A stretch of DNA of 64,000 nt, taken from positions 1 through 64,000 of the forward strand of contig JAMCVK010000038.1 of NCBI GenBank assembly GCA_023475225.1, given 5' to 3'. The position numbers were made by a program, and so were the translations under genes. The notes beneath the pieces are model-generated. The model searched no databases and was not told the origin of the DNA. It worked only from the letters and a program-made list of their open reading frames with translations. The stretch comes from Chloroflexota bacterium (GTDB lineage Bacteria; Chloroflexota; UBA6077; FW602-bin22; JAMCVK01). Shown here piece by piece: positions 13,882-62,416 of this stretch (positions are counted from its first letter, which is position 1; each line of letters begins with the position of its first letter).

Positions 13882-15327
13882 CTAGCGGCCTGCCTTGCTA
13901 TGGAACTCTCTCGCCTCTTTCAGTATCCTTTCCAGGTCTTCCTCCTGGTTTGGTGTTAAAGGACTCGGCTTATGTACAGATAGTATTTTCTCCAACCTCT
14001 CCTTTGCGTAATCCAAGGCACCCTTCTTGCCCTTCTGGAGCCATTCGGGGTAAGTCAGCCTGTCGGCAGATTTGGGCACGTACTGTTCCCTCTGCCACCA
14101 CTTTCGTGTATGAGCCTTGTTCAGATAATGCCCTGGGATCGGGCCCACCTCCTCTATCAGTTCCAGAGCAATGGTCCCCTCATTAACCTCTTCTCCCTCT
14201 ATGAAACGCCCGATCATTCCCGCCACGTCATCATCCAATATGGCCTGCACAGGATGCGCTGAGATCTCGCTGGACACACCCAGATGAAGCAGTATAAAAT
14301 GCGCCCCAGACAACGCGGAAAGAATCCCGGCAATACCCTTCTCGTATCCTCCCTGATAATCCAGCGTCTTCGCCTCCGCATAGCCTGGGCTGCCATTTGA
14401 CAAGGGTACCCCATAATGCCGCCACATCTGGTTGAAGATTGCATTGCTAATGGAGGAATCTATCTGGCCAAATGCAGGGGAGCCCGTGTTCATGTTCACC
14501 GGCGCAGAGAAATGCCCTACGGAAATCCTGTGCTCGGGATTCAGGAGTTGGACCAAGACGACCATCGCCATCTGCGCTGCATTACTGACCACGACGGAAC
14601 CCGCAATCGTTGCCGGACTGGTCCCACCCATCATGCAGCCGTCCACGGTGGTTAAGGGAAAACCGGCCTCAACGATTCTTCGGGCAGCATTCACTGCGTC
14701 CCTCCCCCACGTCAATGGCGGGGAAGAGCCAACTATCCCGGTGATTTCCTGTCCAACGGCCTGCGCCATTTGTATAGTGAAAACCTCGTTGTCGTTTGAA
14801 CATCCCTCCATTTGGTGCTTGGTGGAATACCGTATCTTGAGAGCAACGCCCTCGGGAATGGCCATTGCAGGCGGAATGCCCTCGTAACCGAAATATGGAT
14901 AGGCGCCCAGGAAATCAACGGTATCCAGCGCGTCCAGCACTTTGACACAATCAGCGTACTCAGCCCTTGTCGGAACTCGGGGCTCGAACGTGCCCAGATC
15001 AATGGTTTGCATTCCTGAGGAGTGCGTAAAGTAAACGGTGTTTCCACCCAGTATGATGTCGTTCTCTGGTGTGGGGGCCTTCACCCGAAAACTGCTGGAC
15101 GCGCGGCGCAGGCATTCCTCCACCAGCCCCTCGGGGAATCTCACCCTCATGGCTTCACGGTCCACCTTACAACCATTCTTTGCCAAGAAATCTAGAGCCC
15201 AATCGCTTTCAATCCGAATGCCGGTTTCCCGAAGGACGTCTAATGTGGCCCTGTGTATGGCCTCTACCTGCTCTTCTGTCAGCATCTGGAGAGGTCTGAG
15301 TTTCCGGGTAAATCCCTTTCTCGGCAC
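13882..15327 (-). CDS. MttB-superfamily methyltransferase, pyrrolysine-free
   Basis: 481-residue member of the trimethylamine methyltransferase (MttB) superfamily: TIM barrel, N-terminal LTEEQVEAIHRATLDVLRE helix typical of the family, and later GYAEAKTLDYQGGYEK and LSGAHFILLHLG segments. There is no in-frame UAG, so it belongs to the non-pyrrolysine branch, whose known members demethylate glycine betaine, proline betaine or carnitine by passing a methyl group to a cognate corrinoid protein. The corrinoid protein gene is directly upstream with a 9-base gap, as expected for a pair. The substrate cannot be predicted. Confidence 0.88.
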   Translation of the reverse strand: MPRKGFTRKLRPLQMLTEEQVEAIHRATLDVLRETGIRIESDWALDFLAKNGCKVDREAMRVRFPEGLVEECLRRASSSFRVKAPTPENDIILGGNTVYFTHSSGMQTIDLGTFEPRVPTRAEYADCVKVLDALDTVDFLGAYPYFGYEGIPPAMAIPEGVALKIRYSTKHQMEGCSNDNEVFTIQMAQAVGQEITGIVGSSPPLTWGRDAVNAARRIVEAGFPLTTVDGCMMGGTSPATIAGSVVVSNAAQMAMVVLVQLLNPEHRISVGHFSAPVNMNTGSPAFGQIDSSISNAIFNQMWRHYGVPLSNGSPGYAEAKTLDYQGGYEKGIAGILSALSGAHFILLHLGVSSEISAHPVQAILDDDVAGMIGRFIEGEEVNEGTIALELIEEVGPIPGHYLNKAHTRKWWQREQYVPKSADRLTYPEWLQKGKKGALDYAKERLEKILSVHKPSPLTPNQEEDLERILKEAREFHSKAGR

Positions 15328-24416: not shown

Positions 24417-25805
24417 CTAATCTAGCAGGATGCCTGCCCTGATCACTTCGTCCTTAACCTCGTCGTAGATTCGCCGCCACTCATCCGTAGGCTGCAGCGT
24501 CTTCACGTCGTAGCACTCCGGGAAACTCTTGCCCTTCGGGGACCTCCCTAAATCGGACTCGTAAAGGGGCAGAAGTTTGAGGGCGATGTCATTGGCCCGG
24601 GCGCGGCTCATGCCAGCCGTCTTCTTGAACACTTCGCCCGCGAACTTGGTTTCAAGCGGGGTAATGTAGTTGGTATACTTGCCCCCTGCGCTCCTCGGGC
24701 CGGTGCAGGACGACGCCCCCGACACGGTCAGGTTCAGCATGCCCACCGCTGACTCGTACAGCAACATTTTGGTCGCCGGCCCCGCCGTCTGATTCAGAAC
24801 CGAGTTGGTGCAAATATGGGTGTTGCGGCTTAACGCCTGGAACACCAGGCTCAGCGCCCACTGTGCCCTGCGCCCGCAGTTGCCCATGTACTTCATGTCG
24901 TAGGGGAAGGATGCTCCGTTGGAAGCCTGGTAGGCCGTGTACAGCAGGAGCGTGCAGGCGATGCAGGAAAGGGTGGCCCCCTCTGGCCCGCCAGCATACC
25001 CTCCGATCATGGACCAGGAGCCGCCATAGGTGATGCCGCCGCAGTTGTAGGTCTGGCACAGTTTGTGCAGCACTTCGTACGAGGTTTTCATTTCCACGGG
25101 GGTGAGCAGCAGAACGATGTCTCTTTCGGGCTTGTACCCGCCGGGGATACCATAGCTGCCCAGAACGCCGTAATGCGTGGGGGCCGTGCCCACGGCGTAC
25201 AACCCCATGCCTTCGCGCCCGGCGCGCCGCAGGGCCTCGTAGGTCAAGTCCGCTTGCAGTTTGCCAGCGAGCAGCTCGTAGGGCGACCCAGCGCGCAGTT
25301 GGCTGCCCCAGATGGTTTGGAGAGATGGCCCTTCCAGGCAGTCTACCTCCGGGAGGCGTGCGATGCCCTCCGCGATGGGGACGAACAACTCCTCGGTCAC
25401 GGCGATGCTCAAGGGAGCGATCCACACCGGAGGGAAGGGGTCCTCAAAAGTTCTATGCCGGAACACAGCCATTTCTTCCCCTTCCCCCAGCCTGAACTCG
25501 GACGGAGCGGCATCCAGCGCCTGCTGGATCTCCGCGCGGCTAAACTTGATCACCCGCTGCGTGTCCAGGCACAGTAAGCCCACCTCTACAGCCGTATCCA
25601 TGGCTGCCTGGAAGAAGCGGTCCGCCAGGTTATCGTCCTGGTTGATGGGGTTGTCAGGTTCGCACGTCTTCTGCAAGTCATATCTCTTGAGGTTCGCCGC
25701 GATGGTCTGAGGAATAACCTCGGTATCCCACTGGAACGGCTCACAAAGGGGACCTGAGTGGGCCCTGTCCAAAACCTGCATCAATCTCTCGCGATCCAGC
25801 GTCAT
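24417..25805 (-). CDS. MtmB-family (monomethylamine methyltransferase) homologue without pyrrolysine
   Basis: 462 residues, close to archaeal MtmB. Matches by eye include AGREGMGL (archaeal AGRPGMGV), GGYAGGPEGATL (GGYAGGIEETTI), GPATKMLLYESA (GPCTEMCLLEAS) and the C-terminal GKSFPECYDVKTLQPTDEW (GKTFQECYDVKTVTPTEEY). At the place of Pyl202 it encodes Tyr203 (TAC at 25197-25199), and no in-frame UAG exists. Archaeal MtmB uses Pyl to hold methylamine, so a different methylated substrate is likely. ATG 25805 is 8 bases after AAGGAG. The cognate corrinoid protein gene is immediately upstream. Confidence 0.88.
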   Translation of the reverse strand: MTLDRERLMQVLDRAHSGPLCEPFQWDTEVIPQTIAANLKRYDLQKTCEPDNPINQDDNLADRFFQAAMDTAVEVGLLCLDTQRVIKFSRAEIQQALDAAPSEFRLGEGEEMAVFRHRTFEDPFPPVWIAPLSIAVTEELFVPIAEGIARLPEVDCLEGPSLQTIWGSQLRAGSPYELLAGKLQADLTYEALRRAGREGMGLYAVGTAPTHYGVLGSYGIPGGYKPERDIVLLLTPVEMKTSYEVLHKLCQTYNCGGITYGGSWSMIGGYAGGPEGATLSCIACTLLLYTAYQASNGASFPYDMKYMGNCGRRAQWALSLVFQALSRNTHICTNSVLNQTAGPATKMLLYESAVGMLNLTVSGASSCTGPRSAGGKYTNYITPLETKFAGEVFKKTAGMSRARANDIALKLLPLYESDLGRSPKGKSFPECYDVKTLQPTDEWRRIYDEVKDEVIRAGILLD

Positions 25806-25824
25806 GCTCATTCTCCTTCCGTGG

Positions 25825-26508
25825 TCACACAATGACGGTCTTGACCACGGGGGGCTTCTCCCTCGAGGTCATCAGAATCTCGCACAGCCTTGCTGCTGAG
25901 GCGGCGTTCTCGGCCCACCCGTCTGCGCCGATCCCTTTGGCGAATTCGGCTGTGACCGGGCCACCGCCTACGATGACATAGAACTTGTCCCGCAGTCCCA
26001 TTTCCTTCAGCACCTCAATCACTTCCTGCTGGTAAGGAAGTGAGGTTGTCATCAGGCTGGACAGAGCGATAATAGTCGCACCCCCGTCCCTGGCCGCGCT
26101 TACGAACGTCAGGGGAGGTACGTTGACGCCGAGGTCGGTGATCTCAAAGCCCCGCACTGCTATCATGTTAGCAACCAAGTTCTTGCCGATGTCGTGAATG
26201 TCCCCCGAAACCGTGCCAATAACGATGCGGCCTCTCGATTGACGGCCCTGGCCAGCCTCGATGTGCGGGCGCAGGACGGCCATGCAACGCTCCATCTTCC
26301 TACCCGCGATCATCAGTTCTGGGAGATAGATGTCACCCGCTTCAAACCGGTCGCCGACGGCGCGGATAGCCTCGGTGGCCACGTCAATGGCAGCGTTTAG
26401 GTCGACTCCCGCGTCCACGATCACCCGGGCGGCGTCCTCCACCTCTTCCACTCTGCTTTCTCCCAGGATCACCGCTCTGAGTCGCGCCAACAATTCCTCT
26501 TTCGCCAT
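25825..26508 (-). CDS. corrinoid (methyl-carrier) protein, MtmC-like
   Basis: 227 residues. N-terminal helical cap with LNAAIDVATEAIRAVGDRFEAGD, then the B12-binding domain with GDIHDIGKN (lower-ligand His), the SSLMTTS loop and VGGGPV. It should carry a methyl group from the MtmB-like protein (next gene, 19-base gap) to the pterin-binding methyltransferase encoded upstream. The order methyltransferase MeTr, corrinoid protein, MtmB-like forms one demethylation unit. Confidence 0.92.
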   Translation of the reverse strand: MAKEELLARLRAVILGESRVEEVEDAARVIVDAGVDLNAAIDVATEAIRAVGDRFEAGDIYLPELMIAGRKMERCMAVLRPHIEAGQGRQSRGRIVIGTVSGDIHDIGKNLVANMIAVRGFEITDLGVNVPPLTFVSAARDGGATIIALSSLMTTSLPYQQEVIEVLKEMGLRDKFYVIVGGGPVTAEFAKGIGADGWAENAASAARLCEILMTSREKPPVVKTVIV

Positions 26509-35757: not shown

Positions 35758-36678
35758 ATGGCAAACTACGACTTAATCATCGTTGGGGGAGGCCCGGCTG
35801 GGTTAACGGCTGGGATTTACGCCTGTCGAAGTAGACTTAACACCCTTCTTATCGAGAAGGGGTTGCCTGGGGGTCAAACAGCAACTATCGAGCGTATCGA
35901 GAACTACCCGGGCTTTGAGGAGATCAGTGGACTGGAGCTTTCCAATCGCCTGGAATCCCAGGCCAAGCGTTTTGGCTTGGAGATAACCCTTGAGGAGGTG
36001 ACGAGTTTAGCTGTGCAGGAGGAGCGCCGTCTCGTCTTTGCGGTGGGAGAGCGGTACGAAGCCAAGGCGGTCATCATTGCTAGCGGGGCTCAGCCAACCA
36101 AACTCGGTGTGCCAGGGGAGGAGGAGTACCGTGGGAGAGGTGTTTCCTATTGTGCCACGTGTGATGGGGCCTTTTTTGAGGGGGCGAGGGTGGCTGTTGT
36201 TGGTGGTGGCGACTCGGCTATCCAGGAGGCTGATTATCTGACGCGGTTCGCCAGCAAGCTAATCGTAATCCACCGTCGTGACGCTCTAAGGGCCACGAAG
36301 GTCCTTCAGGAGCGCGCCCTGGCTAATCCTAAAATAGAGTTTCGCTGGAACAGCGTGGTCGAGGAGATTCAAGGTAATGACATGGTGACCAAGTTGATCC
36401 TGCGGAATGTAAAGGATGGGACGCGAGGGGAGTTGCCTGTAGATGGTGTCTTCGTCTATGTAGGCATTCGTCCCAATACGGAGTTCCTGCGCGGCACCGT
36501 TGACCTGGACCCACAGGGTTACATTGTGACTAATGCGCGAATGGAGACTAATGTGCCTGGCGTCTACGCCGCGGGTGATGTGCGCCAAAAGCACCTACGC
36601 CAGATCGTCACTGCCGCGGCCGATGGGGCCATCGCTGCTATGGCCGCCGATCACTATCTCGCCACTCAAAGAAAATAG
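35758..36678 (+). CDS. trxB: thioredoxin reductase
   Basis: 306-residue flavoprotein that reduces thioredoxin with NADPH. FAD site VGGGPAGLTAGIYA, redox pair CATC in SYCATCDGAFF, NAD(P) site VGGGDSAIQEADYL, C-terminal FAD contact GVYAAGDVRQKHLRQ. Ribosome site GGGGAGGTG precedes ATG 35758. It could feed the thioredoxin of the Grd operon at 59.5 kb, since no reductase gene is present there; that is an inference. Confidence 0.93.
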   Translation: MANYDLIIVGGGPAGLTAGIYACRSRLNTLLIEKGLPGGQTATIERIENYPGFEEISGLELSNRLESQAKRFGLEITLEEVTSLAVQEERRLVFAVGERYEAKAVIIASGAQPTKLGVPGEEEYRGRGVSYCATCDGAFFEGARVAVVGGGDSAIQEADYLTRFASKLIVIHRRDALRATKVLQERALANPKIEFRWNSVVEEIQGNDMVTKLILRNVKDGTRGELPVDGVFVYVGIRPNTEFLRGTVDLDPQGYIVTNARMETNVPGVYAAGDVRQKHLRQIVTAAADGAIAAMAADHYLATQRK

Positions 36679-53170: not shown

Positions 53171-54199
53171 TTAGGGCCTGGTCACGATGGTGTACCAGCC
53201 ATTGCCTTTAGTAGCATCCTTGCCTACATGGGTGAACTGTCCCCAGACCAGATAGGGTAGGAATGGTGTCAGCTGGTTGGTGAAGGTTATCTGGCCGATG
53301 CATCCTCCAATGGGCATCGAACGCCCCTGTCGCGTTGAATAGCTCTGCAACTCTACCCAATCTGTCTTATCCTCCACCACCTTTACGGCTTGGGCCTGCT
53401 CCAGGAGAGAGGCGAAATTTAGGTCCAGCTTCTCCTGAGCATAGTGGGCTGTTAGGCTGCTCAATCGTTCAAAGAGGCGCTGGATAAAGGGGACGAAACG
53501 TAATGGTCTCACTAGCTGTCCACTCTCGATCAAGCGTAAGGGCGTAAGCAATTGGATGGTAATTGTAAGAGAGCCCTCCGTACTCCCTGCTGTCTTGAGG
53601 TGATCAGCCACCCAGGACAGCACGTGTTCGTGGCGGACCGGGCAATCAGGTACATGCACCAGTTCGTCCGCACCGCCATACACCAGATGACGCTCGCCTG
53701 TCAACGGATTAATGGCCTCTATGCGCTCTAAAACAAAGCAACCACGGCGCCAGCGGCCATCATCTCCAGGGATTTTCTGCCCGATGCCTGTCTGGCGCAT
53801 TTTATGGAAGGCGATGATCGCATAGGGAAAGAGTTGCAGCGCCTGGCTGAAGATGGTCAGTCCAAAGGCGATCGGCTCCCCCGGCGCGTAGCGAATCTGG
53901 GGCTCGAGTGGGGGATCAATAACGAACGGCCGGGGCACATCCACCCCCCGTGGGCTCTCCTCATCTACCGTGGCGACCAAAGCACAAATAGGGCAGCTGG
54001 CGTGAAGGGGACAGGGTTGGCAGGAGGGCTGCTCCCGCTTCAGACAAAACCTATCCCGTAGGGTGTGGAAGAAAGCCCCGCGCAGGGCTGACCCTTTGTG
54101 CTCGTTTAGAAGGATAGGGCTAGTCACCTTCCCCTGGAAGCGGAGTAGGTGGGCAGTAAAGCTGTTCACGGCCGGCTCCTTTACCAGAGTATAAATCAT
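53171..54199 (-). CDS. orphan Cas6-like RAMP protein
   Basis: 342 residues. It resembles the Cas6 family of CRISPR-RNA-processing endoribonucleases (PF10040 type): N-terminal LRGAFFHTLRDRFC, a Cys cluster CQPCPLHASCPIC, the middle FGLTIFSQALQLFPY, and the C-terminal glycine-rich GQFTHVGKDATKGNGWY typical of this family. No CRISPR array, cas1/2 or effector gene lies within the window. It may process a distant array or have another RNA target. It diverges from the LacI regulator gene. Confidence 0.75.
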   Translation of the reverse strand: MIYTLVKEPAVNSFTAHLLRFQGKVTSPILLNEHKGSALRGAFFHTLRDRFCLKREQPSCQPCPLHASCPICALVATVDEESPRGVDVPRPFVIDPPLEPQIRYAPGEPIAFGLTIFSQALQLFPYAIIAFHKMRQTGIGQKIPGDDGRWRRGCFVLERIEAINPLTGERHLVYGGADELVHVPDCPVRHEHVLSWVADHLKTAGSTEGSLTITIQLLTPLRLIESGQLVRPLRFVPFIQRLFERLSSLTAHYAQEKLDLNFASLLEQAQAVKVVEDKTDWVELQSYSTRQGRSMPIGGCIGQITFTNQLTPFLPYLVWGQFTHVGKDATKGNGWYTIVTRP

Positions 54200-54231
54200 T
54201 TCAGCCGCTTTGTTAATGCCTGGATCTATCC

Positions 54232-54273
54232 TTGATACAGCATCCCTTTCCTGTTATAATTGAAACGTTTCAA
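54232..54273 (+). promoter_or_regulatory. promoter and LacI-type operator of the Grd operon
   Basis: TTGATA (54232-54237), 17-base spacer, TATAAT (54255-54260). The 14-base perfect palindrome TTGAAACGTTTCAA (54260-54273) overlaps the end of the -10, the standard position for a LacI-family repressor site. The LacI gene starts 22 bases downstream, giving autoregulation. Confidence 0.85.
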
Positions 54274-54295
54274 GTAGACTGTTTAAGGGTGAGCT

Positions 54296-55294
54296 GTGAC
54301 GACGATCATCGACGTGGCCCGCCGCGCCGGCGTTTCGGTGGGCACCGTCTCAAATGTCATCAATGATACCTTCCCTGTGCGGGAATCGCTCCGCCAGCGG
54401 GTTCAGCAAGCCATCGAGGAGCTGCACTATCGCCCCAATGCCGTAGCCCAGAGCTTGCGCTCGCAGCGTACACGGACGATCGGCTTGGTCATCTCGGATA
54501 TCGGGGATCCCTTTTACATGGCCATCGCCCGGGCCGTGGCCGATCAGTCCGGCCACTATGGCTATAACATCATCATTTGCAATACCGATGAAGGCCTCGC
54601 CGAGGAGAAACGATCCCTTGAGACCCTGGCCGCCAGGCGCGTGGATGGTCTTATCGTTGCCCCATCGCGGGGCGCCCACGATTTCCTGAGCACTCTCGGG
54701 GCAAAAGGGCTGTCCATAGTGCTCATTAACCGCCGCCTGGAAGGGGTGGCTATCCCCGCCGTCATCGTCAATAACCGCCTGGCGGCCTACCAGGCGGTAG
54801 AGCACCTGATTCAGCTTGGGCACGAGCGCATCGCCCTCCTCCCCGGTTTGGAGGGGGTGAGCACAACACAGGATCGCCGTGAGGGCTACCTGATGGCCCA
54901 TAACGATTATAGGCTCGTTCCAGACGAGGAGCTCTGCCAATACAGTCCTCTCAGCGTCGCCGAGGCGAGGGAAAGGATGAGGCATCTCTTAGAAATGGAG
55001 CAGCCACCAACGGCCATCGTCGCCTGTAGCATTCTGATGACCCTGGGCGTGTTACATGCCCTTAATGACCAGAGGCGGTGCTGTCCAACCGATATGGCCC
55101 TGATCGGCTTTGGTGAGAGCGAGTGGAGTCGCTTAATCTCTCCTCCCCTGACCTGTGTGGAACAGCCGATTCGGGCCATAGGGATCACAGCCGTGGATTT
55201 GCTGTTTGCCTGTATGCGGGGCGACCAGGTGGACGAGGAGAACATTGTCCTGGAAACGACCCTGGTACACCGTCAATCGTGTGGTTGTCGTTAA
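54296..55294 (+). CDS. LacI-family transcriptional regulator
   Basis: 332 residues. HTH IIDVARRAGVSVGTVSNVIN followed by the hinge region YRPNAVAQSLRSQRT, then a periplasmic-binding-protein-like sensor domain (GLVISDIGDPFYMAIARA through HRQSCG). It senses a small ligand, usually a sugar or nucleoside. First gene of the Grd operon (GTG start); the grdE-type gene follows in 36 bases, so it likely represses the whole operon. LacI control of a Grd cluster is unusual and bears on the substrate. Confidence 0.93.
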   Translation: MTTIIDVARRAGVSVGTVSNVINDTFPVRESLRQRVQQAIEELHYRPNAVAQSLRSQRTRTIGLVISDIGDPFYMAIARAVADQSGHYGYNIIICNTDEGLAEEKRSLETLAARRVDGLIVAPSRGAHDFLSTLGAKGLSIVLINRRLEGVAIPAVIVNNRLAAYQAVEHLIQLGHERIALLPGLEGVSTTQDRREGYLMAHNDYRLVPDEELCQYSPLSVAEARERMRHLLEMEQPPTAIVACSILMTLGVLHALNDQRRCCPTDMALIGFGESEWSRLISPPLTCVEQPIRAIGITAVDLLFACMRGDQVDEENIVLETTLVHRQSCGCR

Positions 55295-55330
55295 TACGAC
55301 CATGCTTAGAGATTCGAGAGGAGGTTGGCC

Positions 55331-56602
55331 ATGCGACTGGAGTTGGCTACATTTGAGGTCAAAGACGTCGTCTTCGGTCCCCGTACAGCGTTGCAGGATG
55401 GGACGCTAAGCATCGATCGGGAGGAGTTGCAGCGGCTCCTGCTCGAGGACGAAAACCTGAGGAACGTGGAGATAGAGCTGGCCCGTCCTGGGGAGGAGAC
55501 GCGTATCATCCACGTCCTGGATGCGCTTGAGCCCCGCCTGAAGGTGACGGGGCCAGGTTATACCTTCCCCGGCTTTCTAGGTCCGCCGCGCACCGTTGGG
55601 GAAGGACGGACGCATCGGCTTGCTGGCCTGGCCATTTTGGAATCGGCCCAGTTCCCCGTTGATCCGAAAGGGCTGTTGACAGCCAGAGAGGCCATCGTCG
55701 ATATGTCTGGACCGGCTGCGCCCTACTGTCTGTTTTCAGAGACGTTGAACGTGGTGCTCGTCTTCACACCTGTAGAGGGCCTGCCCAACGATGAATACGA
55801 TAACGCCATGCGACGCGCTGGACTGAAGGCGGCCGTCTATCTGGCGGAAAGCACCCGTGGCCAGCCAGCGGACTGGGTGGATACCTATGAGCTGGGTGAG
55901 GTTGACCCAGCCTTGCCCCGCGTCGCCTATATCAACCAGGTTCAATCGCAAGGGTTGTTCGCCCAGACCTTCATCTACGGCAAAAATGTTAATGACCTGC
56001 TGCCCACGATCATCCATCCTAACGAGTTCCTGGATACAGCTGTGGTCAGCGGTGTCTACGTCTATGGTTGTGTTAAGAATCCGACCTACCTGCATTGTAA
56101 TCACCCGGTGATCAAGGAGCTTTATCGGCGTCACGGGCGAGAGCTCAACTTCGCAGGTGTGGTTGTCTCCAAGGGACACAACTACTCCTATATGTGGAAG
56201 GAGAGATCGGCCAACTATGCGGCCAATCTGGCCAAGTTGCTGCGGGCTGATGGTGTCATTCTCACCCAGGAGGGCGGCGGCAACGCCAACATCGACCTAA
56301 TGCTCACGATCAAGGCCTGTGAACAGCTGGGCATCAAGACGACCTTCATCACCTTCGAGTATGGCGGGGCCGATGGGAGTGATCAACCCCTAGTCAGCTC
56401 TGTGCCGGAGGCCGACGCTATCGTGAGCACGGGGGGACAGGACCATTTATTGGAACTGCCACCCATGAAAAAGGTGATCGGCGGTTCGGAGGTCCGTGGC
56501 TATGGTGTCAAGGCGAACGAGGGCTTCACCATCGTCCTGGAACAGGTGTACACAGCAGTCAATCAGCTCGGGGCAGGGAAGGTGGTAGCCCGCCCTTACT
56601 GA
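55331..56602 (+). CDS. glycine/sarcosine/betaine reductase component B, GrdE/G/I type
   Basis: 423 residues. It supplies the substrate-binding proprotein of component B, which in known systems is cleaved at a Cys to make a pyruvoyl group that binds the amine of the substrate. Recognisable blocks: VVSGVYVYGCVKNPTYLH with a candidate processing Cys, VVVSKGHNYSYMW and LTQEGGGNANIDLMLTIKAC. ATG 55331 is 6 bases after AGGAGG. The choice between glycine, sarcosine and betaine forms cannot be made by eye. Next gene is the selenoprotein B subunit. Confidence 0.87.
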   Translation: MRLELATFEVKDVVFGPRTALQDGTLSIDREELQRLLLEDENLRNVEIELARPGEETRIIHVLDALEPRLKVTGPGYTFPGFLGPPRTVGEGRTHRLAGLAILESAQFPVDPKGLLTAREAIVDMSGPAAPYCLFSETLNVVLVFTPVEGLPNDEYDNAMRRAGLKAAVYLAESTRGQPADWVDTYELGEVDPALPRVAYINQVQSQGLFAQTFIYGKNVNDLLPTIIHPNEFLDTAVVSGVYVYGCVKNPTYLHCNHPVIKELYRRHGRELNFAGVVVSKGHNYSYMWKERSANYAANLAKLLRADGVILTQEGGGNANIDLMLTIKACEQLGIKTTFITFEYGGADGSDQPLVSSVPEADAIVSTGGQDHLLELPPMKKVIGGSEVRGYGVKANEGFTIVLEQVYTAVNQLGAGKVVARPY

Positions 56603-56630
56603 GGTGAGTTTACTGGAAAGGAGAGAAACG

Positions 56631-57959
56631 ATGAACCAGAAGGTGCGTGTGGTGCACTATATCAATCAATTCTTCGGTGGCCTGGGTGGTGAGGGTAAGG
56701 CTGACCTTCCGCTGACTTCTAGGGAGGGGGCGGTTGGACCTGGCATCGCCCTTCAGAAGGTGTTGGGTGAGCGGGGCCAGATCGTGGCCACCCTCATCTG
56801 TGGCGATAACTACTTTCAGGAGAACCAGGCGAAGGTGATCGCCGAGGCTCTGGAATTGATCTCCCGTTATCAGCCTGGGGTGGTCATTGCCGGTCCTGCC
56901 TTCAATGCCGGGCGCTATGGGCTCGCCTGTGGAGCCCTCTGCCAGGCCGTCCAGGAACGCTTGCACTGTCCGGCCGTGACCGCCATGTACCCTGAGAATC
57001 CAGCGGTGGAGATGTATCGGAGACAGGTCTATATTGTGCCCACTGCCCCCTCAGCTGTGGGATTGGCTCAGGCTGCTCCGAAGTTGGCTGACCTGGCTTG
57101 CAAGCTGGCTCTGGGGGAGAAACCAGGCTCGGCGGCCGCAGAGGGATACCTGCCCCGTGGCTATCGTCTCAATGAGATTGAGACGAAGACTGGGGCGGAG
57201 CGTGCCGTGGAGATGCTTCTGGCCAAGCTCAAGGGACAACCGTTTCAGACCGAGCTGGAGGTGGAGCGGTATGAGCCGGTCACCCCGGCCCCACCAGTGA
57301 GCGATCTCTCCAGGGCGACAATCGCCCTGGTCACTGAGGGGGGCATTGTTCCCAAGGGAAACCCCGACCGCATCGAGTGGGCGCGGGCCAGCAAATGGGG
57401 CAGGTACTCCCTCGCCGGGCTGAATGACCTGACGGGGGAGACCCACGAGGCCATTCACGGCGGTTTTGATAACACCTGGGCCAACCAGGATCCGGATCGT
57501 GTCCTGCCGGTCGATGTGTTACGCAGCCTGGAGAGGGAGGGTGTCATCGGTAAGCTATTAGACGTCTATTATGTGACAGTCGGCAACGGCACGGGCATAG
57601 ATGCCTCCCACAAGTATGGACAGGAGATCGCCAGGGAGCTGTTGGAGGCAGGCGTGAATGCCGTCATCTCTCCAGCCACCTGAGGAACCGGCACGCGTAG
57701 CGGTGCTACGATCGCCAAAGAGATAGAGAGGGCAGGCATACCGACCGTGTTGATAACGGCTATGATCTCCGTGGCCCAACAGGTGGGTGCCCCGCGCATC
57801 GTGCGTGTGGGGCGCATCCCTCATCCTCTCGGCAATCCGGAGAGGACCCCTGAGCGGGAGAGGGAATTGCGGCGACGGATAATTGAAACCGCTCTGCGCA
57901 CCCTCCAGACGAAGGTGGAAGGACCGACCATCTTCGAGGTGCCCGAAGCCATCGTCTAA
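56631..57959 (+). CDS. selenoprotein of reductase component B (GrdB/F/H type)
   Basis: 442 residues including Sec351, encoded by the in-frame TGA at 57681-57683 in the context SPAT-Sec-GTGSGAT. Component B selenoprotein reacts with the substrate bound by the GrdE-type subunit and passes a carboxymethyl group to selenoprotein A. Reading stops at TGA would lose the final 92 residues, which are in frame and fully conserved in character (AGIPTVLITAMISVAQQVG). The gene would otherwise look broken. AAGGAGAG precedes ATG 56631. The selectivity for glycine, sarcosine or betaine is not resolved. Confidence 0.9.
57690..57707 (+). promoter_or_regulatory. candidate bacterial SECIS hairpin of the grdB-type gene
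   Basis: Six bases after the UGA, GGCACGC pairs with GCG-GTGCT (one bulged G), leaving a GUA loop. Bacterial SECIS elements lie just after the UGA and bind SelB through a G-U-containing loop. Small, so the evidence is suggestive only. I saw no clean hairpin in the corresponding place of grdA. Confidence 0.45.
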
Positions 57960-58011
57960 GAGGAGCGCCGCGTTTCTGAAACCCTGGAATCTTAAGGAGA
58001 GGGGTAAACGT

Positions 58012-59472
58012 ATGGACTTTCCGGTGGTGAAGGGGGTGTCCTACTTCCTGGCCCATGTGCCGGGGGTGGTGCGCCACGGCTCTAAGCCCTGCCGGGAGCT
58101 GCCTAAGGGGGGCGAGTCCCTTTTAGGCGCTTTCCTGCGGAGCCTGCGCACCTATGAGGAGGCTAAGTCCTATCCTCCGCATCAGGTCTTCATTGGAAAC
58201 CTCCACCCGGATGACCTTTGGAATGTGGAACGACCATGGTATGCTCATCCAGCGCCGGGGGCGTCTCGGCAGGGTCCCTATGGGGAGATCATGCCGGAGG
58301 AGGAGTTCTATGGCTTTATGAAGGTGTCTGATGAATTCAATCTACTCCTCCTGGAGGAGGGTTTCCTAGCCAGGGTAAGGGAATCGTTAAGGGGTCATCC
58401 CCTCCTGACAGCTGTGGATCTGGCTCGTCTGGAGAAGGGCACGCCACGGGAGGCCATTGAGGAGAGCATCGAGCAGGGACTGACCCTGCCCGTCTACCTT
58501 GCCCCGCAGCAGCTGGTTGGCTGTGTCCTGCAGGCGCACGATGAGGATGAGGCCCTCTCGGCTCGGGTGATGATGGAGAACCTGGCCTGTAAGGCTTCAG
58601 CGGCCCTGGCCTTGCGCCACCTTCTTTCTCGTGGGGATGGACTGGCCCCTGAGGAGGTGGACTACATCCTGAATAGTGGGGAGGAGGCGGTGGGAGATCG
58701 CTACCAGCGGGGTGGAGGCAACCTGGCCAAGGCAGTGGGTGAGCTCTCTGGATGTGCGAATGCCAGTGGGGCGGACATCAAGGCCTTCTGCTGCTCGCCG
58801 CTGCATGCCATCGTCATCGCCGCCGGTCTGGTGCAGGCGGGGCTGTATCGCAACGTGGCCGTCATTGGGGGCGGATCCTTTGCCAAGTTGGGGATGAAGT
58901 TCAAGGGGCATCTGGCCAAGGGGATGCCGCTAATGGAGGATGTCCTGGCCGCGGTGGCCATACTCATTGGGCCGGATGATGGCAAAAATCCTCTGATTCG
59001 GCTCGATGTTGTGGGCAAGCACAACATCGGCTTGGGGACACTTCCTCAGGTGCTGGTGCAGGCCCTGGTGGTTGAGCCTTTGGATAGGTTGGGCATGCGC
59101 CTAACAGATGTGGACAAGTATGCCCTGGAGATGCACAACCCGGAGATCACCGAGCCAGCGGGGAGTGGCGATGTGCCACGGAACAACTATCGGCTGATCG
59201 CCGGGATGGCCGCCATCCGCCACGAGATTGAGCCCACCGCGCTGGAGGAGTTCATCGCTATCCATGGCATGCCCGGGTTCTCCCCGACGCAAGGGCATAT
59301 CCCGGCGGCTATCCCCTTCCTGGGGCACGCCCGAGAGGCCATGCTGGCAGGAAAGATGGAAAGGGCCATGTTCGTGGCCAAGGGGAGCCTGTTTTTGGGA
59401 CGGATGACTAATCTCTCCGATGGGATGTCGTTCCTGCTGGAGCGGAATGGGAGGGGGATGGATGTTGCTTGA
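58012..59472 (+). CDS. grdC: reductase component C subunit GrdC
   Basis: 486 residues from ATG 58012, which follows AGGAGAGG. Component C takes the carboxymethyl-selenoether from selenoprotein A and, through an acetyl-enzyme, releases acetyl phosphate. The N-terminus FPVVKGVSYFLAHVPGVVRHG and the ketoacyl-synthase-like centre (SGADIKAFCCSPLHAIVIAAG, IGGGSFAKLGMKFKGHLAKG) match GrdC. The second C subunit, GrdD, normally follows; here a thioredoxin gene does. GrdD may be elsewhere or not needed. Confidence 0.85.
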   Translation: MDFPVVKGVSYFLAHVPGVVRHGSKPCRELPKGGESLLGAFLRSLRTYEEAKSYPPHQVFIGNLHPDDLWNVERPWYAHPAPGASRQGPYGEIMPEEEFYGFMKVSDEFNLLLLEEGFLARVRESLRGHPLLTAVDLARLEKGTPREAIEESIEQGLTLPVYLAPQQLVGCVLQAHDEDEALSARVMMENLACKASAALALRHLLSRGDGLAPEEVDYILNSGEEAVGDRYQRGGGNLAKAVGELSGCANASGADIKAFCCSPLHAIVIAAGLVQAGLYRNVAVIGGGSFAKLGMKFKGHLAKGMPLMEDVLAAVAILIGPDDGKNPLIRLDVVGKHNIGLGTLPQVLVQALVVEPLDRLGMRLTDVDKYALEMHNPEITEPAGSGDVPRNNYRLIAGMAAIRHEIEPTALEEFIAIHGMPGFSPTQGHIPAAIPFLGHAREAMLAGKMERAMFVAKGSLFLGRMTNLSDGMSFLLERNGRGMDVA

Positions 59473-59818
59473 GGTGACGCGGGAGAGATTCGCCAGCGAG
59501 GTGCTCGATCAGGTTGGGCCGGTGTTGGTTGATTTCTGGGGGCCGCGCTGTGTGCCCTGCCTGGCTCTGTTACCAGCGGTGGAAGATATAGCGGAGAGGT
59601 ATGCCGGGAAGTTGAAAGTGGTCAAGGTGAACGCCGCTGAGAACCGGCGGCTGTGTATCGACCAAAAGGTGTTCAGCCTTCCGACCCTCCTCTTTTATGG
59701 GGGTGGTAAGGAGATAAAGAGGCTGGCGGGTGAGGTGAGCGCAGAGGATTTGCTGGAGATGGTGCGGGAGTTGGTGAACAACTCCCCAGCGGAGCATTCA
59801 GAGGGAGGTGAGCAGTGA
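59462..59818 (+). CDS. thioredoxin-like protein of the Grd operon
   Basis: 118 residues. Thioredoxin fold with active site [13 protein letters not shown], i.e. CVPC instead of the usual CGPC, cis-Pro in [12 protein letters not shown]. It should reduce selenoprotein A after each turnover. ATG 59462 lies inside the grdC end; its TGA overlaps the grdA ATG (ATGA/TGATG type), so it is translationally coupled on both sides. A reductase (trxB) is encoded only at 35.8 kb. Confidence 0.92.
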
Positions 59819-60294
59819 TGGATTTGCGAGGCAAGAAGGTCATCGCCATCGGGGAACGGGACGGCGTACCCGGCCCGGCCATCGCCGCCTGTGCTAAGGC
59901 AGCTGGGGCCGAGGTGGTCTATACGGTGACGCAGTGTTTCGTCTGAACGGCGGCCGGGGCGATGGATCTGGATGATCAGGGGATGATCAAGCGGATCGTC
60001 GAGGAACACGGTCAGGAGGGTCTGGTGGTGGTGCTTGGTGCACCCAGCGCTGATGCAGCTGAGATCGTGGCCGAGACGGTGACCGTTGGTGATCCCACCT
60101 ATGCTGGTCCATTGGCCGGGGTCCCGTTGGGACTGCCCGTTTATCATATTTTGGAGCCGGAGATCAAGGCTCAAGTGGATCCGCAAGTGTACGAGGAGCA
60201 GGTGGGGATGATGGAGATGGTTCTGGAGGGCGAAAAGATCGTACATAGTGTGCGCAAGAGGCGTGAAGAGACGCTGAGCGGTCAAGGCGGATAA
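59818..60294 (+). CDS. grdA: glycine reductase selenoprotein A
   Basis: 158 residues including Sec43, TGA at 59944-59946 in the context CFV[11 protein letters not shown], a near-invariant GrdA motif. Selenoprotein A carries the carboxymethyl group from component B to component C. Length and position of Sec match the family (Sec44 in known proteins). The N-terminus [21 protein letters not shown] is also typical. Last gene of the Grd operon; a hairpin follows. Without recoding, the gene would be read as two fragments. Confidence 0.95.
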
Positions 60295-60313
60295 AGAATC
60301 TAGCGTACCCAAA

Positions 60314-60351
60314 AAGGATAGCTGCGCTCAAAGTGAGAGTTAGCTATCCTT
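60314..60351 (-). terminator. bidirectional hairpin between grdA and the R-M island
   Basis: Stem AAGGATAGCT/AGCTATCCTT (10 of 10) with an 18-base loop. On the minus strand TTTTT follows the stem, so it can stop the island transcripts; it also lies after grdA on the plus strand. Confidence 0.75.
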
Positions 60352-60352
60352 A

Positions 60353-60595
60353 TTAGCGCTTGTCATATAAACGCCTAAATGCTCGTTCTCTAGATAAAAA
60401 ATAACCATCTAAGATCCAAAAAGTTACAACAGGCAAAAAGGCAATTACAGCATATTTTTTATCCGCATCTTTTGAGGATAAAGCAAACAAAGCGGCTACC
60501 AAAGTTATAGCCCATCCTTTCATAAAGAAAGGATTATTAGCCATTCTGTTGATTATGGACTGGATGAATTCTAAATGCTTAGCTTTATTCTCCAT
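60353..60595 (-). CDS. small membrane protein, probably 3'-truncated
   Basis: 80 residues. The start (HLEFIQSIINRMANNPFFMKGWAITLV) and two membrane segments (residues about 26-44 and 48-64) match a widespread small-protein family seen next to restriction and other defence genes, whose members usually continue well past the YFLSRERAFRRLYDK part. Here the frame stops directly before the terminator hairpin, so the C-terminus seems to be missing. AT-rich, like the rest of the island. Overlaps the methyltransferase end. Function unknown. Confidence 0.55.
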   Translation of the reverse strand: MENKAKHLEFIQSIINRMANNPFFMKGWAITLVAALFALSSKDADKKYAVIAFLPVVTFWILDGYFLSRERAFRRLYDKR

Positions 60596-61322
60596 AGATT
60601 TTGAATAATTTTAATTTTGCCGCTGAAGTCCTCAATCTCTGCTCTGCAGCTTTGTAGTATTTTTCATCTATTTCTATACCAATAAACTTTCTTCCCAAAT
60701 TAAACGTCGCAACTCCGGTTGAGCCAACACCCATAAACGGGTCAAAAACTACATCGCCCTCTTTTGAAGCAACTTTAATAATATGCTCCAGTATCTTTAT
60801 CGGTTTTTGTGTGGGATGAAAGGGGGTTTTAATTCGTTCGGGCCCCATGCAAATAGGAGATTCAATAAAGTTATGCATTTCCTTTTGGTTGGTAAAGTTC
60901 CAAATATGCCCCTTATTCCACATACAAACTATAAGCTCACAACTATTGAGAAATCCGGCTCGTAATACTTTAGGCACGGGGTTCGTTTTGTGCCAAACCA
61001 TGAATTGAAAAGTATCAAACTCTGGATCAAACGCTTCATGCCATTTGCCTACAAGGTTATAACTACAAAAGGCGAAAATATTTCCTGTTGGTTTCAATAT
61101 TCTTTTAAATTCAGTAACCCAATCACTTGGCTTGAACTCCGCTTTATCCCATTCGGCTAAATCATTGTTTATTTCTTTTCGCCAAGAGAGCTTTATATTT
61201 CCTGTAGAATATGGACTCAAATTATAAGGCGGATCTGTAAGAATCAAATCAATAGAGACAGAAGGTATCTCCTTTATTATCTTATAACTATCGCCCAGAT
61301 GTAATTTGTAATTTTCTTCCAT
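60585..61322 (-). CDS. site-specific DNA methyltransferase
   Basis: 245 residues. Catalytic motif DPPYNLSPYS (DPPY, N4-cytosine or N6-adenine type) comes first, then the SAM-binding FDPFMGVGSTGVATFNLG, i.e. the beta-class order with the target-recognition part between. It protects host DNA from the restriction partner. ATG 61322 begins 7 bases after the restriction gene's stop. Clearly lower GC than its neighbours, a sign of transfer. Sequence specificity unknown. Confidence 0.9.
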   Translation of the reverse strand: MEENYKLHLGDSYKIIKEIPSVSIDLILTDPPYNLSPYSTGNIKLSWRKEINNDLAEWDKAEFKPSDWVTEFKRILKPTGNIFAFCSYNLVGKWHEAFDPEFDTFQFMVWHKTNPVPKVLRAGFLNSCELIVCMWNKGHIWNFTNQKEMHNFIESPICMGPERIKTPFHPTQKPIKILEHIIKVASKEGDVVFDPFMGVGSTGVATFNLGRKFIGIEIDEKYYKAAEQRLRTSAAKLKLFKIYGE

Positions 61323-61329
61323 AGTTAAG

Positions 61330-62139
61330 TTAACCAATATAAACTTTTTTAATAGAGTCCAACGCTGTCCTAATTAGAGGCGCGCTTTCTCTATATGCTT
61401 CAAGGACAGTTTTATAACTCACATCAGAACGACAAACAAAATTCCAAAAATCTTTTCCAATAAGAAGTTCCTCCTCAGCGAAAAATTGTTTTACTCTCTC
61501 CTGTCTCTAAGGTTTATTTTCGCCATAACGATTATAAGCAGTTGCGAAAAAGATATTGATCTCCGTTTTTTGTGGTAAAACATTTGAGAGCATTGCAAAC
61601 TGTTCTAAAATCGCTTCTTTTTCTGAACGGGCTTTCTTATTATCTAAGTCGCCGCCGATTTTAAGCTCAATAAGATGATGAGCATTTGTCTCCCTATCAA
61701 TCAAATAGTAATCGCTATCATGTCGCTTTATGGGTGCTCTATCCTTAGTAGAGATTGTACGCAAAACCTGATAATCTTTTACGCTCGGCTTTATTTCGTG
61801 CCTCTTGTATTTTTCTAGCAATTCTGCAATAACTCTTGTCTGTTCAACAGCCAATGGGCCTTCAACATTTCTTTTAACTTCAAAACTCAATGTCGCGATG
61901 TTTATAGCCAGCGATTCCAACATATTCCCCAACAAACTATCTAAGGACCGCACAAGTGCGGTGTAATATTGAATTTCTTTGCCTAACGCTTCAATAAAAA
62001 CATTGTGGATTTTCATATTGATAATCCCTTCCGGATTATCTACTTCACCCTCGTGCCTAGCTTGAAAACCTTGAGCGTAGGACTCAACGGCAGTATGCAC
62101 CAATGTTTTGATTGTCTTTTTGTCAGGTATTGATCGCAT
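61330..62139 (-). pseudogene. TdeIII-like type II restriction endonuclease with in-frame amber codon
   Basis: An N-terminal part of 210 residues (61507-62139) ends YGENKP-stop. The stop is TAG (61507-61509); reading on in the same frame adds RQERVKQFFAEEELLIGKDFW... for 58 residues to TAA 61330. Together about 269 residues, the TdeIII family size. The nuclease core around SDYYLIDRETNAHHLIELK remains. The TAG most likely replaces a TGG Trp. The C-terminus is needed in the family, so the nuclease is probably inactive. Upstream of the methyltransferase, as in R-M pairs. Confidence 0.72.
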
Positions 62140-62143
62140 ATTT

Positions 62144-62268
62144 TTACTCTTTTATTAAATCGTCTACTCTAACATTTAACGCCTTGGCAATTTTTGTTAA
62201 AGTCTCAATAGTTGGGTTTTTATTAGCGTCTGATTCAATCTTCCCCCAGAATTGACGAAAGTTGCATA
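62144..62268 (-). pseudogene. 5'-truncated XRE-type (controller) regulator
   Basis: Only the second half of an XRE helix-turn-helix remains: FWGKIESDANKNPTIETL, then TKIAKALNVRVDDLIKE to the stop. The N-terminal 30 or so residues are missing; upstream the sequence becomes the 3' end of tRNA-Pro. No suitable start codon. It probably was the C protein of the R-M system. Confidence 0.75.
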
Positions 62269-62271
62269 TGG

Positions 62272-62346
62272 TCGGGGCGGTGCGATTCGAACGCACGACC
62301 ACCTGCACCCCATACAGGTGCGCTAACCGGACTGCGCTACGCCCCG
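62272..62346 (-). tRNA. tRNA-Pro (anticodon GGG)
   Basis: 75 bases on the minus strand, from discriminator A at 62272 to the 5' base at 62346. Acceptor stem CGGGGCG/CGCCCCG, D arm GCGC-GCGC, anticodon arm CCTGT-ATGGGGT-GCAGG with anticodon GGG, T arm GTGCG-TTCGAAT-CGCAC. The terminal CCA is not encoded. The R-M island begins within a few bases of the 3' end. Confidence 0.93.
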
Positions 62347-62354
62347 CAGCCGAT

Positions 62355-62383
62355 AGTATAGCCGATTTTGTCTGCCCGGTCAA
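62355..62383 (-). promoter_or_regulatory. promoter of tRNA-Pro
   Basis: On the minus strand TTGACC (62378-62383), 17-base spacer, TATACT (62355-62360), 8 bases before the tRNA 5' end. Back to back with the phosphodiesterase promoter. Confidence 0.8.
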
Positions 62384-62388
62384 GCTGC

Positions 62389-62416
62389 TTGACACAGAGA
62401 TTTGCAGTGGTAAAAT
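62389..62416 (+). promoter_or_regulatory. promoter of the phosphodiesterase gene
   Basis: TTGACA (62389-62394), 16-base spacer, TAAAAT (62411-62416). The leader of about 120 bases shows no recognised riboswitch. Confidence 0.55.

Follow-up and report, generated by a model that had tools for sequence, protein, structure and literature searches.

A LacI-led Grd operon without grdD in a Chloroflexota bacterium: a candidate selenoprotein reductase for a substrate other than glycine

What might a glycine reductase-type (Grd) operon do if it begins with the gene for a LacI-family repressor and has no grdD? The question is raised by a stretch of DNA from a Chloroflexota bacterium (GenBank assembly GCA_023475225.1, contig JAMCVK010000038.1, positions 1 to 64,000), the whole 64,000 nucleotides of which are referred to here as the window. 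Six plus-strand genes, lacI, those for the alpha and beta subunits of component B, grdC, trx and grdA, are arranged head to tail at 54296-60294. Glycine reductase is known for the formation of acetyl phosphate via GrdC and GrdD. The reading favoured here, with moderate confidence, is that the operon encodes an autoregulated selenoprotein reductase for a carboxymethyl compound other than glycine, the acetyl group being passed on without GrdD.

Operon organization and predicted LacI control

The features on which the analysis rests are as follows, the operon families having been assigned with Pfam and NCBIfam models.

54232-54260, plus strand: sigma-70-type promoter TTGATA-17-TATAAT, with TG ahead of the -10 (11 of 12; consensus match only)
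54260-54273, palindromic: predicted LacI operator TTGAAACGTTTCAA, a perfect 14-base palindrome with a central CG
54296-55294, plus strand: lacI, LacI/GalR-family repressor, 332 amino acids, GTG start (PF00356, PF13377)
55331-56602, plus strand: component B alpha subunit, GrdE/GrdG/GrdI family, Cys242 replaced (PF09338, 464 bits; NF040793, 355 bits)
56631-57959, plus strand: component B beta subunit, GrdB/GrdF/GrdH family selenoprotein (PF07355, TIGR01918)
58012-59472, plus strand: grdC, component C beta subunit, GrdD-less subtype (NF040746, 658 bits, cut-off 450)
59462-59818, plus strand: trx, thioredoxin with CVPC active site (PF00085; NF047697, 108 bits)
59818-60294, plus strand: grdA, selenoprotein A with CxxU motif (NF040748, 238 bits, cut-off 130; PF04723)
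60311-60354, plus strand: 13-base inverted repeat with an 18-nucleotide loop, 3′ of grdA, a possible transcript end (inverted-repeat search)
35758-36678, plus strand: trxB, thioredoxin reductase (TIGR01292, 397 bits, cut-off 343)

It is apparent that all six genes of the operon are intact and follow one another in the compact order described in an earlier, sequence-only reading of this DNA, at intergenic distances of 36, 28, 52, -11 and -1 bases. In-frame UGA codons were found in grdA (59944-59946, codon 43, encoding selenocysteine 43 [Sec43] in a motif that reads CFVU) and in the gene for the beta subunit (57681-57683, codon 351, Sec351). A candidate selenocysteine insertion sequence (SECIS) of the beta subunit gene forms a hairpin 9 nucleotides past the UGA (z, -1.7); the bacterial SECIS fold of grdA was no better than those of shuffled sequences. 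The inverted repeat downstream of grdA has no strong T run, and terminator prediction gave no call there.

The putative promoter is the best promoter-like match in 53900-60700. The palindrome had been placed over its -10 element; it is perfect, lies upstream of lacI and adjoins the promoter as claimed, but it has only one base in common with the -10, and its centre (54266/67) falls on the predicted +1. By our own arithmetic, about 4 perfect 14-base palindromes are expected by chance per 64 kb, and one in a given leader of about 90 bases with a chance of about 0.5%. With one mismatch allowed, a search of the whole genome (2.74 Mb) returned this single copy, and no copy was found in any other locus retrieved. 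In a survey of 1303 LacI-family regulators, 72% were autoregulated, through sites of even length with a central CG and an upstream position (PMC4052901); in these three respects TTGAAACGTTTCAA resembles a typical site of the family. The lacI product has the helix-turn-helix (residues 3-48; PF00356, 62.7 bits) and the periplasmic-binding-like effector domain (residues 60-329; PF13377, 124.8 bits) that together characterize the LacI/GalR family. Its nearest solved relatives are CcpA, PurR and RbsR, a likeness that names no ligand. Repression of the operon by its own LacI via TTGAAACGTTTCAA is thus a prediction from sequence.

A second LacI-led case was found in another genome of the same class (G021), where lacI is followed by TTGACA-17-TACCGT, the operator GTGCAAACGCTTGCAC, and then grdA and grdC; the opposite strand carries a CUT1-type ATP-binding cassette (ABC) transporter and a mandelate-racemase-type enzyme. 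GTGCAAACGCTTGCAC was matched solely at its own site. Since the two LacI proteins share 27% identity and their operators differ, they are not simple orthologues. With this second case, predicted LacI control of Grd genes is seen to recur within the class. The Grd loci examined from other phyla showed no LacI gene, and a full-text literature search for LacI-family regulators together with glycine reductase found no paper.

Absence of GrdD and the component C subtype

The GrdD model NF040747 had no match in the window's genome, and the only match to PF02504, the PlsX/GrdD superfamily, was the housekeeping plsX gene adjoining fabF; absence statements for this genome rest on such family searches. 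The earlier observation that grdD is missing at the locus was therefore borne out, and a search for it elsewhere in the genome did not find it. In a sample of 400 genomes of the phylum, nine, including the window's own, were found to have a relative of the alpha subunit. None of these nine has a GrdD above the cut-off, versus six of seven comparison genomes from Clostridia and Synergistota; simple counting gives a one-sided probability of 0.0009, a value to be read with caution, as the nine genomes are related to one another.

The GrdC proteins differ correspondingly. Among the 34 sequences compared, the six from GrdD-less genomes fall on one side of a branch with 100/100 support, and 12 alignment columns split the two groups almost without overlap. 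A C-terminal, helical stretch of about 25 residues (VSKEEIKxMIAEAMxDFASHL type) is present in all 28 of the others and in none of the six. Position 375 is His in the GrdD-less group and Gln in the 28 others; in place of the FCA of the larger group, five of the six read FCC. Three further named references (Enterococcus gilvus, Photobacterium and Acetoanaerobium noterae) all have GrdD, the tail and the Gln.

In a GrdC profile search, Cys260 of the window's protein was aligned with the catalytic nucleophile of KAS III; the match of the profile to KAS III in the PDB extended around this Cys only, and single GrdC and GrdB proteins, used as queries against PDB sequences, gave no match. The motifs at His375 and His429 (EMHNPE and TQGHIP) are reminiscent of the histidine pair of KAS enzymes. 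This is a motif reading and not a computed alignment, as hhalign of GrdC against the genome's FabF aligned the Cys region alone, with low probability.

The genes that would handle acetyl phosphate are unevenly distributed. Acetate kinase was not found in seven of the nine Grd-bearing genomes of the phylum; G021 has a split, partial match and the window's genome has one gene, which adjoins allG and not a grd gene (L188, G000 contig 16, 52962-57125). The neighbour encodes an oxamate carbamoyltransferase subunit, and this ackA may serve ureide fermentation. A phosphotransacetylase-type gene is present in the window's genome and in one other (G018); a search of six more Grd-bearing genomes of the phylum found none.

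As regards electron supply, the sequence-only reading had missed a local thioredoxin reductase: trxB lies within the window, 18 kb upstream of the operon, and its product is the likely electron source for the operon's thioredoxin. An adjoining selA and selB pair is located on contig 14 of the same genome. Selenocysteine decoding and electron supply are thus both covered.

Component B and candidate substrates

Both subunits of component B fall short of the models for known substrate types. The beta subunit scored 521.8 bits with the glycine GrdB model TIGR01917 (cut-off 602.2), 526.4 bits with the sarcosine model NF040794 (cut-off 800) and 459 bits with the betaine GrdH model NF040795 (cut-off 775). 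The alpha subunit scored 354.8 bits with the sarcosine GrdG model NF040793 (cut-off 780) and 183.7 bits, lower still, with the FarE model NF053623 (cut-off 675). For comparison, reference glycine, sarcosine and betaine proteins scored 804 (the canonical Geosporobacter GrdB), 853 and 854 bits with their own models. The superfamily model TIGR01918 was matched by the beta subunit, with its in-frame UGA, at 538.7 bits (cut-off 65.45).

Sequence motifs point in the same direction. The published GrdB motif (PMC9751293) is not present, IHGGFDN and TVGNGTGI being found instead of AHGGxD[QTAP] and TxGNxTxV, and the published GrdF motif (PMC9751293) is absent as well. UGTGTRSG replaces UGTCTRCG, with the loss of both cysteines of UxxCxxC. 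In the alpha subunit, SGVYVYGCVKN is aligned with SGNCVSACDKN; glycine and sarcosine enzymes have SGNC(V)(S/A)xCDK, and the pyruvoyl-forming Cys is lost. The replaced residue is Cys242 in GrdG of P. acidaminophilum and GrdE of Geosporobacter, which in C. difficile was found by mass spectrometry to become a pyruvoyl group (PMC9908766). It is also absent from every other readable alpha sequence of the phylum.

In the phylogenetic analysis the beta subunit fell in none of the glycine, sarcosine and betaine clades; the sequences around it come from its own phylum. For the alpha subunit, the tree gave a grouping (100/97) with two B components from Clostridia, both of unassigned substrate. Long branches leave the deep order of the trees uncertain. 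These clostridial relatives are neighboured by an amino acid permease and an aldehyde:ferredoxin oxidoreductase in one genome and by a sodium:solute symporter in the other. A search of genome contigs with the alpha subunit returned five loci at 43-45% identity; plasmid records yielded named references but no close relative. By cut-offs, motifs and trees, then, component B is not of the glycine, sarcosine or betaine type, nor do cut-offs or trees assign it to the Far type, and glycine appears an unlikely substrate. According to the sequence-only reading, a component B firmly of the glycine type, together with a grdD elsewhere, would reduce the locus to an ordinary glycine reductase under unusual control; neither was found, and its interpretation as a LacI-regulated Grd operon without grdD is supported. 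That reading had overlooked three features of greater weight: the loss of the pyruvoyl cysteine, the loss of the UxxCxxC cysteines, and a GrdC of the His type whose missing tail accompanies the lack of grdD.

Several further Grd-type loci were met in the course of these searches. In one genome of the same class (G020, 74% complete) the B components are extremely expanded: the Gly_reductase alpha family is matched 18 times, and GrdB-type selenoproteins number about 10 (L077, L079-L082, L095, L096). In another genome of the phylum (G269; L078, 5930-15319), grdE, grdC, trx and grdA occur in the same order without grdD, in a run that encloses two SBP_bac_5 lipoproteins (oligopeptide/opine-type). 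Immediately downstream of a clostridial B component of unassigned substrate (G490; L128, 5751-10975) are genes for an aldehyde:ferredoxin oxidoreductase and a MoaD-like protein.

If the substrate is not glycine, methylated glycines (glycine betaine or dimethylglycine) are the leading specific candidates, given the GrdI-like loss of the pyruvoyl Cys and the two corrinoid methyltransferase gene sets of the window (at 13.9-26.5 kb, methyltransferases of the MttB and MtmB types together with MtgC-like corrinoid proteins). Such a divergent betaine-type reductase is possible, if somewhat doubtful: the beta subunit is far below the GrdH cut-off and outside the betaine clade, no betaine transporter lies beside the operon, and at least 22 kb separate it from the methyltransferase cluster. 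A haloacetate (fluoroacetate-like) reductase would account for both losses, of the UxxCxxC cysteines and of the pyruvoyl cysteine, since FarB and FarE share them (PMC10838667), but the poor FarE score, which the alpha subunit's own GrdG score exceeds, and a run of genes without the FarA antiporter or the FarC radical SAM gene make it very improbable. Least credible is an ordinary glycine (or sarcosine) reductase under unusual control whose grdD resides in an unassembled part of the genome. The incomplete assembly and the scores of GrdA and GrdC, both above their family cut-offs, would allow for it; the lack of GrdD throughout the nine Grd-bearing genomes of the phylum, a GrdC without the tail that accompanies GrdD, and a component B that has neither the scores and motifs of a glycine or sarcosine enzyme nor Cys242 all argue otherwise.

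Two further alternatives concern the product and the regulator. PlsX and GrdD both belong to PF02504, and the genome has one plsX and one ackA, so the housekeeping PlsX might replace GrdD in making acetyl phosphate, which AckA would convert to ATP. This is unlikely in view of the loss of the GrdC tail, the location of ackA beside allG, and the fact that, of the eight other Grd-bearing genomes of the phylum, seven have no acetate kinase (the eighth being G021, with its split match). LacI, for its part, might be a bystander that controls itself or a sugar system only, the grd genes being expressed through read-through, as the ligands of the family are mostly sugars (PMC4052901) and amino-sugar genes (SIS, AnmK) lie past the end of the window. 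No further promoter-like site was found between lacI and the alpha subunit gene, however, the operator is single in the genome, and a lacI-operator-grdA arrangement recurs within the class; the bystander role is considered quite unlikely.

The methyltransferase genes are part of a minus-strand cluster at 11867-32027 of the window, which comprises an MttB-family methyltransferase (13882-15327), two MtgC-like corrinoid proteins, a pterin-binding methyltransferase, an MtmB-family methyltransferase without an in-frame stop (24417-25832), an FTR-like formyltransferase, a GntR regulator and a CUT1-type ABC transporter. It looks like a bacterial island for the demethylation of N-methyl compounds, with an MtmB free of UAG. 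The amino-sugar genes just past the window (L181, 1038-7866, G000 contig 38) encode a NagA-like amidohydrolase, a SIS isomerase, an anhydro-N-acetylmuramic acid kinase and a second SIS protein, an amino-sugar recycling cluster. Directly past grdA, on the minus strand at 60353-62395, is a low-GC (0.40) type II restriction-modification island (a DNA methylase, a TdeIII-type restriction endonuclease and a helix-turn-helix gene) that adjoins tRNA-Pro (62269-62346). On the other side of the operon, a Cas6-type CRISPR endonuclease gene (53171-54199, minus strand) is oriented divergently to lacI, with no tandem array reported for the window.

Proposed mechanism and comparison with known systems

In the favoured reading, LacI bound to the palindrome over its own transcription start would repress the whole unit, and the repression would be relieved by an inducer, probably the substrate itself or a related compound. 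The electron path from TrxB via thioredoxin to selenoprotein A, with selenoprotein B and GrdC, would be complete. Component B probably takes a compound of the form X-CH2-COO-, from which X, in the absence of a Cys242-derived pyruvoyl group, would leave without a Schiff base; X might be a tertiary or quaternary amine, the Schiff-base-free route being that of betaine and fluoroacetate reductase. The carboxymethyl group would pass to the selenium of GrdA and be reduced to an acetyl thioester, which would be transferred to Cys260 of GrdC. The tail-less GrdC (Cys260, His375, His429) probably hands the acetyl group to an acceptor other than GrdD, most likely coenzyme A. As both GrdD, with its acetyl phosphate, and the pyruvoyl residue are absent, another small carboxylic acid and a different product are probable.

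Several points weigh against this interpretation. The genome is 96.85% complete, and with an acetate kinase and a phosphotransacetylase-like gene of its own, acetyl phosphate could still matter. The GrdD-less GrdC proteins form one clade, so the losses of the tail and of GrdD and the change to His375 represent one event and not independent co-changes. A catalytic His375 is suggested by position and motif, and an AlphaFold2 model of GrdC (from a 4-sequence alignment) was unusable, with a mean pLDDT (predicted local distance difference test) of 48.7. The role of the GrdE pyruvoyl group in glycine binding is itself debated (PMC9908766). Finally, the operon, the promoter and palindrome, the absence of GrdD, the GrdC subtype, the loss of Cys242 and of UxxCxxC and the tree positions are seen in the sequence itself, whereas repression by this LacI, the inducer, the substrate class and acetyl-CoA as the product are predictions.

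The Grd family has been reported in related bacteria, namely Dehalococcoidia (Chloroflexi), and in Lithacetigenota of serpentinite springs (PMC9751293). In the literature searched, no description was found of a form without GrdD and the pyruvoyl group, or of the LacI switch. A conserved lineage with components A, B and C that lacks GrdD, the GrdC tail and the pyruvoyl Cys would mean that the core of the system is separable from acetyl phosphate and from glycine. It may tentatively be suggested that this is a lineage of GrdD-independent reductases in which a self-sufficient GrdC with a Cys-His-His set delivers the acetyl group to coenzyme A in place of phosphate and several B components serve other carboxymethyl substrates, some of them sensed by LacI-type proteins. 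Two old questions become testable, the purpose of the GrdC tail and GrdD, and the chemistry that is left without the pyruvoyl group. The LacI switch also gives a way of approaching the substrate, which its inducer should resemble. Annotation of such genes as 'glycine reductase', and the Stickland energy metabolism inferred from them, may be wrong.

Compared with the clostridial glycine reductase (GrdABCDE; P. acidaminophilum, Acetoanaerobium), the operon has in common a GrdA with CxxU, a selenoprotein B, a GrdE-family alpha subunit, GrdC and a dedicated thioredoxin. It differs in the absence of GrdD, the C-terminal helix of GrdC, Cys242 and UxxCxxC, in the presence of His375, in the gene order alpha-beta-C-trx-A and in the lacI in front. 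The serpentinite-spring glycine reductases (PMC9751293) resemble it in occurring outside Firmicutes and Synergistota and in their deep-branching B components; GrdB was selected in that work by the glycine motif that the present beta subunit lacks, and GrdC and GrdD are unnamed in the paper's main text.

The glycine betaine reductase (GrdH/GrdI, with shared A, C and D; Enterococcus gilvus pCR1A) likewise has an alpha subunit unable to form the Cys242 pyruvoyl. Its beta subunit, however, retains UGTCTRCG, the E. gilvus operon includes grdD, a BCCT transporter and a GntR regulator, and the B component described here is below the sequence cut-off. Fluoroacetate reductase FarACEB of Cloacibacillus porcorum (PMC10838667) is similar in having a beta subunit without the CxxC cysteines and an alpha subunit without pyruvoyl cysteines, whereas the far operon consists of B genes with an antiporter and a radical SAM gene, has no A or C component, and encodes a FarE whose cut-off is not reached here. 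In its regulation the locus resembles the local autoregulators of the LacI family (PMC4052901), with lacI as the first gene of the operon, an even, central-CG palindrome at the promoter and a single target; the difference is that the predicted target is a selenoprotein reductase of amino-acid type, where theirs is a sugar pathway.

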